38,994 bases of DNA, from contig MNGN01000044.1 of NCBI GenBank assembly GCA_001918745.1, positions 1 to 38,994 on the forward strand. Direction: 5' to 3'. The notes beneath the pieces were generated by a model. It saw only the letters and a program-made list of their open reading frames with translations. It did no database searches and had not been told where the DNA came from. The position numbers and the translations under genes were made by a program. This document shows, one piece after another, positions 3,124 to 34,879 of this stretch. Each line of letters begins with the position of its first letter. Positions within the stretch are counted from its first letter, which is position 1. This DNA is from Crenarchaeota archaeon 13_1_40CM_3_52_17. Its GTDB lineage: Archaea; Thermoproteota; Bathyarchaeia; 40CM-2-53-6.

Positions 3124-3891
3124 CTAGCTGCCAATCATCGTGCCCGTGTTCGGTCTCCTTCGCAGAAACCCGAATCGCGGAAGCTGAAGCTGAATTCCAA
3201 TCCCGCTTATGATATCGAACCGTACGAGTCGTGGGATGATCTGGCGGCGATCCATTTTCCTGACGAGCAAATAACGACGCAGCACCTGGTGCTCCTCCAC
3301 CATTCGCAATTCTACCACGCCGTCCACGAGACTCTCAACCTTGTGAAACAGTTCCGGCTGCACACTTCCCGTTGAGAGAGTGCATATCATTTTTCCTCCC
3401 ACCTTCTTGACCTTCGCAGCAATGCTCTGAATGAAGCTGACTGCGTGTTTAGGCTCAGCTTCGCTGAAAATCGGCATCAATGAATCAAGAATTATGGTCA
3501 CCTGGTGATTACCCATCTTTTCCATGACAGAGGTCAGATGAATGCTAACGTTGGTCAAGTCGAATGGCTGCGGAACCACTCCCTCAGTAACCCCGGCCGT
3601 AGCGGAATAACAATCCATGATGCCCAACTTATTCATCAACTGGTACTTCCTCGGATCCCAGCCAAACTGGCTCATTCTCTCGAGAATGTTCGAAGGAAAC
3701 GTATCATACGTAACAATGATACATGGTCTCGATCTCTGAAGCTCTTCGTAGAGGATCTGCTGTGCAAGAGTCGTCTTTCCGCTGCCCGGGTCGCCGGTTA
3801 TCAGCACAGATGAAGAGTCGGGCAGACTGCCCCCTATGAGCTCGTAAAATCCCTTGAAAGGCGCGGACCTAGTCTCCAGTTGTGAATTCAC
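3124..3891 (-). CDS. KaiC-like RecA-superfamily ATPase, single domain
   Basis: A 255-residue protein with one KaiC-type ATPase domain: Walker A GDPGSGKT (33-40), a strand-helix IIVTYDTFPSNILERM matching the KaiC pattern where the second strand carries a conserved aromatic/acidic pair, and a hydrophobic Walker B VTIILDSL (131-138). The catalytic glutamates of KaiC are not obvious. The C-terminus is short and basic. Single-domain KaiC-like proteins are abundant in archaea and are linked to signalling, often to motility or membrane sensors, but no specific partner is evident here. The GTG start at 3891 is favoured because the preceding frame gives no better codon. It reads in the same direction as the AAA ATPase and nadE, but 191 bases separate it from the AAA gene, so separate transcription is likely. 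Confidence 0.85.
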   Translation of the reverse strand: MNSQLETRSAPFKGFYELIGGSLPDSSSVLITGDPGSGKTTLAQQILYEELQRSRPCIIVTYDTFPSNILERMSQFGWDPRKYQLMNKLGIMDCYSATAGVTEGVVPQPFDLTNVSIHLTSVMEKMGNHQVTIILDSLMPIFSEAEPKHAVSFIQSIAAKVKKVGGKMICTLSTGSVQPELFHKVESLVDGVVELRMVEEHQVLRRYLLVRKMDRRQIIPRLVRFDIISGIGIQLQLPRFGFLRRRPNTGTMIGS

Positions 3892-18307: not shown

Positions 18308-18470
18308 GCTCCGGTGGTGTAGCCCGGTTTAGCATAGCGGCCTTAGCCTAGGAATTGGGTGGCCAATCGAGCTTCGCTGGGCAAGCGGCAGAGAAACTAG
18401 AGGTCTCTTGAGCCGTTGATCGCGGGTTCAAAAGCGGCTTAGGCTGCGGAGATTCCCGCCCGGAGCACCA
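18308..18470 (+). tRNA. tRNA-Glu(TTC) with three introns
   Basis: The acceptor stem GCTCCGG (18308-18314) pairs with CCGGAGC (18460-18466), followed by discriminator A and an encoded CCA. The D-arm starts GTGT-AGCCCGG, typical of archaeal tRNA-Glu. Removing three introns gives a 79-base tRNA (with CCA) with anticodon stem GCGGC/GCCGT, loop CTTTCGA, T-stem GCGGG/CCCGC and T-loop TTCAAAT. Intron 1: 18345-18366 (22 bases, position 34/35), supported by a strict BHB: central GGCC/GGCC, bulges TT|A and AA|T, inner helix GCCTA/TGGGT. Intron 2: 41 bases, anywhere from 18369-18409 to 18373-18413 because GAGC repeats at both ends (includes the canonical 37/38 site). Intron 3: 18433-18453 (21 bases, T-loop 59/60), bulge AA|A, inner helix GCGGC/GCTGC. 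No other exon choice gives an anticodon that fits this tRNA body. Confidence 0.85.
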
Positions 18471-18479
18471 AAACGAAAC

Positions 18480-18594
18480 GCGGGGGTACCATAGCCAGGT
18501 CAAATGGGCAGTGGGCCGAGCAGAATCGGTCCGCCATGGGCTTAGGACCCTGTGGCGAAGGCCTTCGTGGGTTCGAATCCCACCCCCCGCACCA
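18480..18594 (+). tRNA. tRNA-Leu(TAG) with intron at 29/30
   Basis: Acceptor GCGGGGG (18480-18486) pairs with CCCCCGC (18584-18590), then A and an encoded CCA (18592-18594). A long variable arm (GGC-GAAG-GCC) marks it as type II, and the anticodon loop CTTAGGA (18541-18547) reads TAG, leucine. The 5' strand of the anticodon stem is interrupted: CAG (18509-18511) and GG (18539-18540) rejoin to CAGGG, pairing perfectly with CCCTG, when the 27-base intron 18512-18538 is removed. The intron folds as helix GGGCCGA/TCGGTCC flanked by bulges AG|T and TG|G, a relaxed BHB. It sits nine bases after tRNA-Glu and is probably cotranscribed with it. Confidence 0.92.
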
Positions 18595-27682: not shown

Positions 27683-27728
27683 AATAAAAAAAAGAGGGGG
27701 AGGTTATTTTAGGCTTGCCCTATCGGGC
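27683..27728 (-). terminator. Hairpin plus poly-T between binding-protein and permease genes
   Basis: On the minus strand GCCC-GATA-GGGC (27717-27728) is followed by a T-rich tract that ends in eight Ts (27686-27693). Placed after the binding-protein stop and before the permease, it would give more binding protein than permease, the usual stoichiometry of importers. Confidence 0.55.
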
Positions 27729-30544
27729 TAGCAGTCGTAGCCGCCGCCACTAGAGTATGGTGTGGTGCATCCCGCCACTGATGACGGGTTGAGTGTTGCT
27801 GTTCCTTCGTATAGTACTGGTGGGAATGTGCCAATGTTCTGCGGTGGTAGTGCTCTCCAATCGAAAGGAGACACCCAGTTGACGCCCTGGAATCTGAAGA
27901 CGATGCTGACCTGTGTCGATGTTATTGTAGCTGGTGAAGCGTTTGTTCCGGCACCGTTACCGATTCCCATGCTCCAACCGTTGCATTTGGTTGGGACAGG
28001 AGTAACGTTGACGCAACTGGCCAAGATGCTGAAGAGCTGACCGTCATGGGCAAAGTCACCGGTGTTCTGAGACCAGACCCATAGAGCAAGGTTGCCGCTG
28101 CTGCGGAAGTATGTCTTCAACGAGGCTCCCGGTGTCTGACCTTGACCGTATCTGACGAATGTCCATGATCCGCCTGTAGGCGGAGCAGAGTTACCGCTCG
28201 AAGAGCATCCGGGTCCACCGATAGTACCGCTAGACGCGCAGACCCAAGGACCGGAACCAATCAGGTTGGCAGCCGTGTCAACATCGTAGCTTGGCGCGAC
28301 TTTTGCGGAGTCAACGCTGCTACCTGTCGGTCGGATGATGTTGCCTGCTCCTCCGGAGAGGACGTCCACCGAGCCTGATGGTGCGATGCATGGGGTAATG
28401 CTGTTGTCAGCGGCGTGGAATGCTGCCGGTGATGTGGCGCTGAGCCCTTGGTTCGCATAGGCGTCCCAGTTGGCTGCAGCAGTGGATAGTGTGCCTGGAC
28501 ATGTTGCGGTCCACGACCGTGCTGGAATCACAGTGTTCGAGAGGAAGAGCTTGGTGTTCGGCCCAACAGCGTTGACGAGTATGTCTATCTGTGATGGGCT
28601 GACTACATGGATTCCGGTCATCGGGGCGAGACCGCCTGCGACACCGTTAGCCCTGTAGGCAATATAGCTGAAAGCAATGTCCCAAGCCGTGACAGGATCA
28701 CCTAAGGAACCTGGTACGCTCGGAGTCGATGAACTGGCGAATTGCCAGAAAATGTCGTGCCGGAGCTGGTAGCGGAAGCCCGCGACCGTTCCAGCTGGCG
28801 GAGCATAGCCTAGTTGTGCTGCTGGGATCTGTGCTGTTCCTAGCGTCATCCATTCCATGTAGGAAGATGGCACATCTGGGTTGGTTGCACCGGGTCCATC
28901 ATATATGGATCCGATGACTCCTGCATCCCAGACAGTGTTTCCTATGAATGGGTTGGCGCTACCACTGGACTGTTTGTATCCTTGGCGTATGCAAGCGAAC
29001 CCGTTGCCACATATCGTGGCTCCTGTTGGGTTCCGAGCGTCTAGTGTCGTGAAGAAGTTACCGGGTGGTGTGAAGCCGTCACCAGCGTTGAGCGCTCCTC
29101 TGTCCCAGGAGTGTTGGTAGGCGAACAAGTTCTGCCCACTCCACCATGGGATAGTGTAAGCGTTCTTCCCGTAGACGTACTGAGACTGATAGAACGCGCT
29201 TGCTTGCGAAAGTCTCCCATCGGAGCATGTGCCAAAAGTGACTGTGTTCCCTGCTGTATTGTTGATTTGTGATGTTACTGGGTCACCTGTTACGGACGTG
29301 CATGCAGCAAATTCAGCGTTCGTGGTAAGAGTGTCGTATGACTGGTTGCAGACGTACATGTAGTTGCCGGGGGCAAAGGATGCCAATGCGCTGGTTGAAC
29401 AGTGTCCTCCAGGGCTTGAAGTCTCGATAGCCGGATATCCGGAGACGAACTGGCTGTTGTAGCCGAAGTAGAGGCTACTGTCAGCAGTCAGAACGTTGCC
29501 GAATCCTGCTGTGTAGACCCACCAAGTTAGAGCCGTGCTCCCGATGTTAGTGGTGAAGCCCGGGAACGATGTGATGGGACCTGGGGTGTAATTTACGATG
29601 TTGTTAGTGGATCCGCCTGACCCGCAGCCAGTGCTGAAAGTCCCGGTGAACAATGCGCAAAGGAACTGAGCATAGCTCTGACCTGCGTGGAGACGCGGAG
29701 TATTGTCACTTCTGACAAAGAGTTGTACAGGGTGTGCGTTTATCGTGGCCAATTGAACGCCCGTTAGGGCACAATTGGCTCCTTTACCGGTTGCAAGACC
29801 AGCTGCGATCAGGTGGTCTGCTGCAGCGCAAAAGTCTGGTTGGCCACAGCCTGGGGTGTACTGGAACCCTGGGGTGTTAGTGCAACCGCTGCCTGCGGCT
29901 GCTGTTGCCAGGTGGTATGCTGTTCCTCCAAGAGCGTTAACATGGCAAGCACTGCCAGTCTGCGGGAACAACGGGTCCCAAGCGCAGGGATCTGGAGTGT
30001 TGAGGTCAATGCTCGGAGGAGGCACTGGATTGTCGATAGGTGTAGCGAGACCCTGGAGCTCAGTTGTGATGAACCGGTTCTTGTCCAGTCCATGAGCAAA
30101 TGCCTGACGAATATTCATTCCACAATTAGTGGTGAGTGGTGCTGTCTGTGTTGCTGGGTTTCCGTAGTTGAATTGACAGCCCCAGAAGTTGTTGCCCATG
30201 TGGAATTGGAGTTCGAAGTACCCTGTATCAGGTATGGTCTGGCTGACCCAGATAGTCGGGTCAGCTTGGAAGCCTGCTACTAGATCAGGGGATAGGGGCC
30301 AGTCGGTGAAATCGATTGTGTGAGCCGCTAGACCTTGGAATTCTGCAGTCTCATCGGCGAATATGGAGTAGGTTAGAGAGTCGGTGACTGGTCCTGCGGG
30401 ATACCAGGGTACGTGGCTGGTCAAGCTGTCGGCGCGAGCGACGTTAACTCTTGGGAGCGTTCCTGCTAGTGAAGGGGCGAGTGTTGTTAGTGAGAATGCG
30501 ATGGCGAAGATGATGAGTAGTTTTGCTGAGGAAATGTTTCTCAT
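27728..30544 (-). CDS. Family 5 extracellular solute-binding protein, very large, ABC importer
   Basis: 938 residues with a signal peptide (MRNISSAKLLIIFAIAFSLTTLAPSLAG). It has the family 5 (DppA/OppA/NikA) layout: FQGLAAHTIDFTDWPLSPDLVAGF near the N-terminus, NIRQAFAHGLDKNRFI, many aromatic residues, and FWQFASSSTPSVPGSLGDPVTAWDIAFSY in domain II; but it is about 300 residues longer than normal and unusually rich in cysteine, serine and glycine. There is no lipobox cysteine and no C-terminal membrane helix; it ends in SSGGGYDC. A second, damaged copy lies at 32377-34879 with nearly identical DNA at the 3' end. Promoter CTTAAAAG at 30577-30584 gives an almost leaderless transcript. Ligand unknown. 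Confidence 0.9.
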   Translation of the reverse strand: MRNISSAKLLIIFAIAFSLTTLAPSLAGTLPRVNVARADSLTSHVPWYPAGPVTDSLTYSIFADETAEFQGLAAHTIDFTDWPLSPDLVAGFQADPTIWVSQTIPDTGYFELQFHMGNNFWGCQFNYGNPATQTAPLTTNCGMNIRQAFAHGLDKNRFITTELQGLATPIDNPVPPPSIDLNTPDPCAWDPLFPQTGSACHVNALGGTAYHLATAAAGSGCTNTPGFQYTPGCGQPDFCAAADHLIAAGLATGKGANCALTGVQLATINAHPVQLFVRSDNTPRLHAGQSYAQFLCALFTGTFSTGCGSGGSTNNIVNYTPGPITSFPGFTTNIGSTALTWWVYTAGFGNVLTADSSLYFGYNSQFVSGYPAIETSSPGGHCSTSALASFAPGNYMYVCNQSYDTLTTNAEFAACTSVTGDPVTSQINNTAGNTVTFGTCSDGRLSQASAFYQSQYVYGKNAYTIPWWSGQNLFAYQHSWDRGALNAGDGFTPPGNFFTTLDARNPTGATICGNGFACIRQGYKQSSGSANPFIGNTVWDAGVIGSIYDGPGATNPDVPSSYMEWMTLGTAQIPAAQLGYAPPAGTVAGFRYQLRHDIFWQFASSSTPSVPGSLGDPVTAWDIAFSYIAYRANGVAGGLAPMTGIHVVSPSQIDILVNAVGPNTKLFLSNTVIPARSWTATCPGTLSTAAANWDAYANQGLSATSPAAFHAADNSITPCIAPSGSVDVLSGGAGNIIRPTGSSVDSAKVAPSYDVDTAANLIGSGPWVCASSGTIGGPGCSSSGNSAPPTGGSWTFVRYGQGQTPGASLKTYFRSSGNLALWVWSQNTGDFAHDGQLFSILASCVNVTPVPTKCNGWSMGIGNGAGTNASPATITSTQVSIVFRFQGVNWVSPFDWRALPPQNIGTFPPVLYEGTATLNPSSVAGCTTPYSSGGGYDC

Positions 30545-32376: not shown

Positions 32377-34879
32377 CTAGCAGTCGTAGCCGCCGCCACT
32401 AGAGTATGATGTGGTGCATCCCGCCACTGATGACGGATTGAGGGTCACTGACCCTTCATAGAGGACGGGTGGGAATGTGCCGATGCTCTGCGGTGGTAGT
32501 GCTCTCCAATCGAAAGGAGACACCCAGTTGACACCTGCGAATCGCGAAAGGATGCTTACTTGGGTTGACCCTATTAGTGCGGGTGCGCCACTCGTGCCGG
32601 CACCGTTACCGATTCCCATACTCCAGCCACGACATTTTGTTGGTACTGGTGAGACTTGATAGCAAGAGGAGAGGATGCTGAAGTTTAGAAAGTCGTGGCC
32701 GAAGTCGCCTGTGGTCTGCGACCAAATCCACAGTGCGAGGTTGCCGCTGCTGCGGAAGAAAGTGTTGAGCGAGCCTCCCGGGGTCGTGCCTACGCCGTAT
32801 CTCTGAAGACTGTAGGTGTCTCCAATGGGGGGATTCTCGGATCCCGTTGTTGAGCATCCCTGGCCGATCGTTCCAGACGAAGATTTGCAAACCCAGGGTC
32901 CCGAGCCGATCAGTGTGCCGGCGGCGAGCGGATCGTAGCCTGGGACAATCTTAGCTGGATCTGCGGACATGCATCTGTCTGGGACATTTCCGATCGCCAC
33001 GTTGCCGTCCCAGATTCCACCTTGGTTGGGTCAACGCTAGTCTTGTGAAGGGTCCGTTGCCGTTTACGTTCACGTCGATCTGGCTAGAGCTGATTACTTT
33101 GACCCCGGTCATGGGGGCAAGTTGAGCACCCTGAAAGGCGCCTGTCGCTTTGAGGGTGAGGTAGGTGAATGCGACGTCCCAGGCGGTGAGTCTGGTTCGA
33201 TCCTGCCAGTAGATATCGCTTCTAAGAGCGAATCGATAGGTGGCTATTGTGCCTGCAGGGGGAACATACCCGAGCTGCTGGTTAGGAATAACGGTGGTTC
33301 CTAGGGTCATCCAGTCGATGAGTTGGCCGTTTGCTTCCGGGTTCACCATGTTTAGACTGTCCCATATGTTGCTGATTATTCCGAAATCCCAGAAGCTGCT
33401 GGCGATGTAGGGGTTGAGGCTCTGCGTTAGCTGTTTGAATCCTTGCCGGATTGTCTGAGGCTGAGCCGGGTTGGTGCTGTACGCGTTTAGGGGAGCGAAG
33501 TAGTTGAGGAGTCCGTTACCTTGATGCAGTACGACTCTCTGCCAGTTGCTGAGGTACCCGTACTGGTTCCTGCCACTCCATATCGGGATGGTGTACGCGT
33601 TCTGACCGAACAGGTCTGCTGTCTTGTATCCTGCGCTGGTCGCCGTGAGCTGGCTGGAATTTTGACAGTTAGCGAAGGTAGGGGTTGTTTGTCCGGTTGT
33701 CGGATCGCCAGGGGCGTTGAGACATGGGGAGAATTCCATCTGGGTGCTGATGCTATCATACGATGAACTGCACAGGTACATGTAATTGCCTGCGCTGTAT
33801 GAGGGGACAGATTGGGCTGAGCACGGCCCCGTTGGCGCCTGGATGCTTGGGATTCCGGAAACAAACTGGCTATTGTAGCCGAAAAATAATCCGCTGTCAA
33901 ATGTGAGGACGTTGATGAATCCGGCAGTGTACATGTTCCAGGTAGCCTGGACTGAGGACGGCGAGGTTATGAAGCCTGGGAACCCGGTAATCGGGACTGG
34001 TTCGACGGACACGTATGACGAACAGCCGGTGGTGAACGAGCCGGTGAAGAGCGCACAGAGTTCCTGACCAACCCCGTCTCCCAACTCAAGGCGAGGCGAG
34101 CTGTCGCTTCGCGCGAAGAACTGGATCGGGTTAGTGGTAACCCCTGGAGCTATTCCGGTCAAGACGCATGTCGTAGGATTCTTGCCTGATGCCAATCCCG
34201 CGTTTACGAAATGGCTTGCGGCCGCGCAAAAGTCGGGGCTGCCGAGAGCAGGTTGCCATGGATAGTTAACTCCTGTAGCTACCGCGCGGTGATAGGAGGT
34301 TCCACCCAAAGCGCCGACGGTACAACTGGATCCTGTCTGCGGGAACAATGGGTCCCAGTTGCACGGGTTGGGAGCTGGGAGCCCAGTGCTAGGCGGGTAG
34401 GGGTTGTCGTTCGGAATTGCTGCTCCTGCGATATCACCCTGACTGGTTGTGAAGATTGTCTTGTCGACTAGGTGGGCGATTCCCTGACGGATGTCTTTTC
34501 CGCAGGCGGAATTGCCGAACGTCATCGGGCATCCCCAGAAATTGGTTCCGAGATGGAATTCCAGCTCAAAGTATTCCTTGGCTGATATCGGGTTGGTGAT
34601 GTAGATGTTGGGAGAGGAGAGGAGGCCACTTACCAGGGTGGGGGATAGTGGCCAGTCGGTGAGGTCGACGCAGCCTGTCTGGAGGCAGTTGAACTCTGCG
34701 TTTTCGTCGGAGAAGAAGGGAGTGACATAGTTGTTGAAGGCTGGTCCCGCCGGATACCAGCTCTCTGCCGGGGCTTGAAGAGCGTGCGCAGTCGGAACGC
34801 TAGCGGTTGGGCCCGATAGCGTGGCGAACGAGATCGCCATCGCGAATACTACGAGTAGACGGAAAGATGAGGATGACAG
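32377..34879 (-). pseudogene. Second family 5 solute-binding protein, broken by frame change and internal loss
   Basis: Paralog of the 938-residue protein at 27728-30544. Part one (34879 to a stop at 32951-32953) covers signal peptide and most of the protein; part two (frame change between about 33010 and 33040, to 32377) supplies IGSGPWVC ... SSGGGYDC. Reading across the frames gives ...GPFTRLALT then NQGGIWDGNVAIGNVPDRC, and the junction region is roughly 50 residues shorter than the paralog, so an out-of-frame deletion is the likely cause. A sequencing error cannot be excluded because the rest is undamaged. The signal peptide is complete only from a CTG at 34879 (SSSSFRLLVVFAMAISFATL); the first ATG, 34840, falls inside it. 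AAGGT stands eight bases before the CTG. Confidence 0.8.

Follow-up and report, generated by a model that had tools for sequence, protein, structure and literature searches.

A tRNA-Glu(TTC) gene interrupted at three sites in a Bathyarchaeia genome, with an intron at 37/38 that is probably two introns in one

The tRNA-Glu(TTC) gene lies at positions 18308..18470 on the forward strand of the window, the whole 38,994-nucleotide stretch of DNA that was analysed, which is contig C8 of a Bathyarchaeia genome (G000; 1.78 Mb, 66 contigs, about 80% complete). It specifies a 75-base mature tRNA and an encoded ACCA (18467-18470), and the original prediction had placed it correctly. Exon 1 (18308..18344) supplies positions 1-34, its last base being T34 of the anticodon, which is divided at 34/35 by the 22-base intron 1 (18345..18366). 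Exon 2 (18367..18369) consists of TCG alone, the three bases of positions 35-37; a short exon had been foreseen, with a range from TC to TCGAGC that is now narrowed. It is followed by the 41-base intron 2 at 37/38 (18370..18410), here read as composite, and by exon 3 (18411..18432; positions 38-59). Intron 3 (18433..18453, 21 bases) interrupts the T-loop at 59/60, and exon 4 (18454..18466) provides the 3' strands of the T stem and acceptor. Together the introns amount to 84 bases (22 + 41 + 21), as predicted. BHB geometry was scored with the exon giving a helix strand and two bulge bases, and with the intron running from one bulge base to a helix strand and two bulge bases. In intron 1, a GGCC/GGCC central helix of 4/4 pairs is flanked by two 3-base bulges, and the inner helix has 6 bp; the earlier description of this intron as a strict BHB holds for these elements but not for the outer helix, which is absent. 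Intron 3 has 3/4 central pairs, the expected 5-bp inner helix and the T stem as its outer helix. Intron 2 fits this geometry as two introns only (4/4 + 4/4, against 0/4 as one).

Immediately downstream on the same strand is a tRNA-Leu(TAG) gene (18480..18590) for an 84-base mature tRNA, followed by ACCA (to 18594). It contains a 27-base intron at 29/30 (18512..18538) with 3/4 central pairs and a 7-bp inner helix, and the same site was occupied in 16/16 loci examined, with 3-4/4 central pairs. Both genes were present on the stretch examined in 11 genus genomes, and in 8 of these the tRNA-Leu(TAG) gene lay no more than 280 bases from the tRNA-Glu(TTC) gene. Neither ARAGORN nor an Rfam search of the window at the gathering threshold reported the tRNA-Glu(TTC) gene. 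A tRNA-Arg called by ARAGORN at 3552-3631 lies inside an ORF (3124-3891) matching KaiC and is probably spurious. Elsewhere in the window, two overlapping frames on the reverse strand (32377-34840), one weakly matching SBP_bac_5, resemble a single solute-binding protein interrupted by a frameshift; an intact relative adjoins at 27728-30544. By eye, a AAAAGGTAAAAG-like motif, perhaps a promoter, was seen about 30-45 bases upstream of the tRNA-Glu start in 10 of the 13 genus genomes, and was not evident upstream of the gene in G000, G007 and G004.

We parsed the gene in 33 genomes, four of which are outgroups from the class; the remaining 29 come from the order, which was represented by 38 genomes. 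The pattern found no TTC gene in the other nine genomes of the order, which were excluded from the counts; G060 (locus L121), apparently intronless, likewise enters no count. Intron cuts were set by hand in G012, G006, G007 and G025, and the strings of the last three were checked against the DNA. The mature tRNA is 75 bases long in all 33 genomes. Three outgroups (G041, G046 and G056) have an intron-free gene and the other genomes have one to four occupied sites, with introns in the D loop in 8 genomes, at 34/35 in 21, at 37/38 in 19, at 53/54 in 6, at 59/60 in 20 and at 70/71 in 1; G004, G005 and G023 each have four. Because relatives lacking individual introns give the same 75-base tRNA, the boundaries 34/35, 37/38 and 59/60 are fixed, which bears out the predicted tRNA-Glu(TTC) identity, the three insertion sites and the divided anticodon. 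The spliced product differs from the intronless product of relatives by at most a base or two. Compared with 12 relatives, 922 of 924 exon letters are kept, and intron identity is 65.5% (209/319) for intron 1, 64.4% (333/517) for intron 2 and 71.2% (173/243) for intron 3. Chance is excluded, since the exons are retained while the introns diverge to 64-71%, and this combination is a signature of selection on the spliced product. The tRNA-Glu(TTC) gene of this Bathyarchaeia host is real. The tRNA-Glu gene of G017 (L111) has an acceptor-stem intron at 70/71 (4/4 central pairs, 11-bp inner helix) and none at 59/60. A second match in G003 (L243, G003:C20:49411) is a lone piece resembling the 5' half of tRNA-Glu(TTC), with a short upstream stretch resembling that of the G018 gene; there is no 3' half nearby, and it was omitted from the counts for that reason.

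A pattern search allowing two mismatches found a single TTC gene in G000 and in each of G005, G013, G015, G016 and G017, whose assemblies are 92-95% complete. The check proposed in the original prediction, for a second intact tRNA-Glu(TTC), found none in the about-80%-complete G000 assembly, either by the pattern search or by BLAST with the spliced tRNA. BLAST matched the 5' half of the tRNA only at this locus; the other matches were mostly pieces of the T arm and 3' end, three of them just 14 bases long. A tRNA-Glu(CTC) gene is located on contig C18 (L175); it too appears to be interrupted, in both the D loop and the T loop.

The long form of the 37/38 intron, scored as one BHB, gave only 0-1 of 4 central pairs in 16/16 genomes that have it (0 in 13 genomes; 1 in G005, G020 and G033), whereas the other introns tallied gave 3-4/4 in 43/43 cases from 25 genomes, as did 16/16 further introns in eight more genomes. 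The short 37/38 introns of G002, G018 and G038 have 4, 3 and 4 of 4 central pairs. The original prediction gave intron 2 of G000 its correct length of 41 bases but described its ends as blurred by a repeat; they sit at the canonical 37/38, which is the sole possible boundary in G013, G017 and G036. It also held that intron 2 could form its helix only after removal of intron 1. The outer part of intron 2 can indeed pair only once intron 1 has left, but intron 2 as a whole still has 0/4 central pairs at 37/38 afterwards and would need a second, inner excision.

We searched for the best split of the long 37/38 intron across all positions. In G000 this yields an outer part, i2a (18370..18395, 26 bases), and an inner part, i2b (18396..18410, 15 bases). 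Within i2a, the strand AGCGGC (18384..18389) is a decoy of the anticodon stem, able to pair with the exon GCCGTT after position 38 and to form with it a 6-bp outer helix for i2b. Next to it is the shared strand AGAG (18390..18393), which takes part in both central helices: with CTCT (18405-18408) in i2b, and with CTTT (positions 32-35) in i2a. These two helices are mutually exclusive, because both use the same four bases. The split gave 8/8 central pairs in 11 of the 13 genus genomes, 7/8 in G005 and 6/8 in G017. The decoy outer helix is 6-7 bp in 10/13 and short in G004 (2 bp), G009 (1 bp) and G016 (1 bp). In another family (G033, G036 and G020), the split scored 7/8, with an outer helix of 1-2 bp. 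A second split in G015 also scored 8, with its outer helix absent, and two splits were equally good in G036. The shared strand pairs 4/4 with bases 32-35 in all 16 long-form genomes and always ends in the G needed for pairing with C32. At three of the four positions of the inner central helix, both partners vary from genome to genome. Removal of i2b leaves 17-28 bases, a length near that of the simple 37/38 introns found in G002 (22 bases), G018 (17) and G038 (18).

The split was compared with 3000 shuffles per genome. Scored with the outer helix, it gave p of 0.0043 or less in 11 of the 13 genomes (0.015 in G009 and 0.024 in G016). The central-pair score alone gave p from 0.003 to 0.48 (0.48 in G017, 0.14 in G005 and 0.06 in G000) and is weak in some genomes. 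Permutation of the inner partners gave p about 0.001 over the 13 genomes, or 0.03 when the nine distinct strand pairs were counted once each; as the split was chosen to maximise pairing, these permutation tests lean towards the two-intron model. The decoy hairpin was also considered as the true anticodon arm and rejected: its loop lacks T33 and a Glu anticodon, and the intron-less relatives have CTTTCGA.

Folding of the full G000 precursor gave a probability of 1.00 for both the central helix of intron 1 and the decoy outer helix. The inner (i2b) central helix reached just 0.18, owing to a preference for a register one position away. Across relatives its probability was 0.97-1.00 in G006, G010, G013 and G014, 0.74-0.87 in G001 and G004, 0.11-0.19 in G007 and G015, and 0.00 in G005, G009, G016 and G017. 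For the i2a central helix it was 0.02 or less in all 13 genus genomes. Central-pair probability as the sole test was rejected, since it is 0.00 even for the simple 37/38 introns accepted in G002, G018 and G038. Forcing the BHB in G000 cost 0, 2.6 and 8.3 kcal/mol over the best fold for intron 1, i2b and i2a, respectively. The cost for i2b was at most 3.6 kcal/mol in 8 of the 13 genomes but 6.0-14.9 in the remaining five, and that for i2a was 7.2-13.0 across all 13, with 5.6, 7.6 and 8.0 kcal/mol for the simple 37/38 introns. Folding thus does not favour the outer (i2a) BHB after removal of the inner part, and given this cost the last step would need help from the enzyme, as simple 37/38 introns also seem to.

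We propose, with a probability of roughly 0.7, that this is an essential tRNA-Glu(TTC) gene with introns at 34/35, 37/38 and 59/60, in which the 37/38 intron combines two BHB introns. From the sites, the exon conservation, the failure as a single BHB and the success and conservation of the split, all of which are read from DNA sequence, we infer how cleavage, its order and ligation might proceed. Maturation of the transcript would fall to the archaeal tRNA splicing endonuclease, together with an RtcB-type ligase. Within the 37/38 intron, i2b would be cut first, from a BHB whose outer helix joins the decoy copy of the 5' anticodon-stem strand to the real 3' strand, and its excision would leave a pseudo anticodon arm. 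Once intron 1 had been removed as well, the AGAG freed from i2b could pair with tRNA bases 32-35, creating the BHB for i2a. As AGAG can pair with these bases only once i2b and intron 1 are gone, i2a would be excised last; intron 1, i2b and the 59/60 intron would be removable in any order. It is rather likely that the 37/38 intron is an archaeal tRNA 'twintron', in which one protein-spliced intron lies within another and the decoy arm acts as guide, with four ordered excisions here and five in G004 and G005.

The alternative that fares best, which we nevertheless consider unlikely, is that the 41 bases form a single intron of relaxed motif (hBH or bulge-helix-loop), with the true anticodon stem as outer helix, AGAG/CTCT beside the 3' bulge, the 5' site in a large internal loop and the decoy incidental. 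Both models share the 3' half-site (bulge TG^A, helix AGAG/CTCT), and the decoy is nearly absent in G009 and G016. Against it, the decoy is kept in 10/13 genomes despite intron divergence, and the pairing of the shared strand with bases 32-35 extends to 16/16. The splicing endonuclease has a ruler-like geometry, and the relaxed reading would, contrary to this, place the 5' site in an internal loop of >20 bases. Passages in the literature describe hBH and BHL motifs for archaeal introns (PMC6379350, PMC12397907), the second of which also names the ruler-like geometry. Much less probable is a single BHB intron whose boundary is displaced, for instance to 40/41, as the GAGC repeat would permit. 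At 40/41 there are 4/4 central pairs in G000 and G007, but with no inner helix and an outer helix of 1 bp in G000, and G013, G017 and G036 permit 37/38 alone, with 0/4 pairs. When all tRNA-preserving boundaries were tried, the few cases with 3-4/4 pairs lacked inner and outer helices. A single BHB intron was rejected on these grounds, both at 37/38, where the central pairs fail, and at shifted boundaries. Most improbable of all is a decaying pseudogene or assembly error with a working tRNA-Glu(TTC) elsewhere: G000 is incomplete, but the arrangement is common to 13 genus genomes with all exon letters but two kept, the five 92-95%-complete assemblies have one TTC gene each, and the other Glu gene, the CTC gene on C18, cannot read GAA under the usual wobble rules.

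Genes for both the endonuclease and the ligase were found in the host, namely two PF01974 genes and the start of an RtcB gene; each of the 38 genomes of the order has one to three PF01974 matches. The best solved match of the alpha subunit was 3p1z (E 1.3e-42), which we take to be the A. pernix enzyme. The alpha protein aligns with it through Tyr, His, Lys and the loop Lys, its Lys42 corresponding to Lys44 of the specific loop, a lysine linked to broad specificity. In the beta-like protein, Phe replaces Tyr and the matching His is absent from the alignment. The pair fits the (alpha-beta)2 type with a specific loop, with a catalytic alpha, a non-catalytic beta and a predicted tetramer. The RtcB gene is partial, cut by the end of contig C18 (L144, about 1656-1843); the sequence after GYDINC resembles the start of an intein, and the reading frame preceding the RtcB gene we take to be archease-like.

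The tRNA genes of the host genus are widely disrupted. With the Rfam tRNA model at E 0.001, 12-19 genes were found in the five 92-95%-complete genus genomes and 35-49 in three outgroups, and in G000, 14 of the 30 tRNA candidates listed pass the gathering score. A 59/60-intron pattern run on 11 genomes matched 4-12 times in each of seven family members, 8 times in G019 and 5-7 times in each of three outgroups; it is uninformative on spread, because many matches are intact T arms or unrelated DNA. If the proposed reading is true, one essential tRNA would need as many as five protein-catalysed cuts, made in a fixed sequence, a nested, order-dependent excision more tangled than tRNA genes are usually described. 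An intron would also have served as the landing site for the next by mimicking the arm of the tRNA recognised by the enzyme, which would be a concrete route to intron pile-up, with close relatives displaying many states (0 to 4 sites) side by side. tRNA finders that accept no more than three introns, or a single BHB at each site, would call essential tRNAs missing in such genomes.

According to passages of earlier reports, archaeal tRNA genes have up to three introns each (PMC8450103, PMC4033280, PMC3293823, PMC6379350), a stated maximum that the four-site tRNA-Glu genes of G004, G005 and G023 exceed. In the open-licence literature we found no archaeal tRNA gene with more than three introns and no nested BHB intron. 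Sites 29/30, 53/54 and 59/60 are on record (PMC4090602); 34/35 is absent from the list printed there, which ends in 'etc.', and we do not claim it as new. What is new here is the failure of the 37/38 intron to behave as one BHB intron. The rarity of such a triple-intron tRNA is less marked than the original prediction had it, given excerpts reporting a three-intron tRNA-Glu(UUC) in Pyrobaculum calidifontis (PMC4390854) and, in complete soil Asgard genomes, introns in 92-95% of tRNA genes, with several in over half of the genes (PMC11291895). A close likeness is with the multi-intron pre-tRNAs of the Thermoproteales, exemplified by P. calidifontis tRNA-Glu(UUC) and P. islandicum tRNA-Pro(UGG), which are described as having three introns per gene, canonical and non-canonical sites, BHB and relaxed motifs and an (alpha-beta)2 endonuclease (PMC4390854, PMC4090602, PMC4033280). 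The present gene differs in its lineage, in the 34/35 intron with its 3-base exon, in the composite 37/38 intron with a decoy and in its four-site relatives, as judged from published descriptions. The soil Asgard archaea (Atabeyarchaeia and Freyarchaeia) are similar in being soil hosts in which most tRNA genes are interrupted, many repeatedly and often at non-canonical sites (PMC11291895), but the present host belongs to a different phylum. The order of events proposed for the 37/38 intron recalls the group II and group III twintrons of euglenid plastids, in which, as described, the inner intron leaves before the outer one can fold; those twintrons are of the ribozyme type (PMC3534033), whereas here a protein endonuclease would cut both layers.
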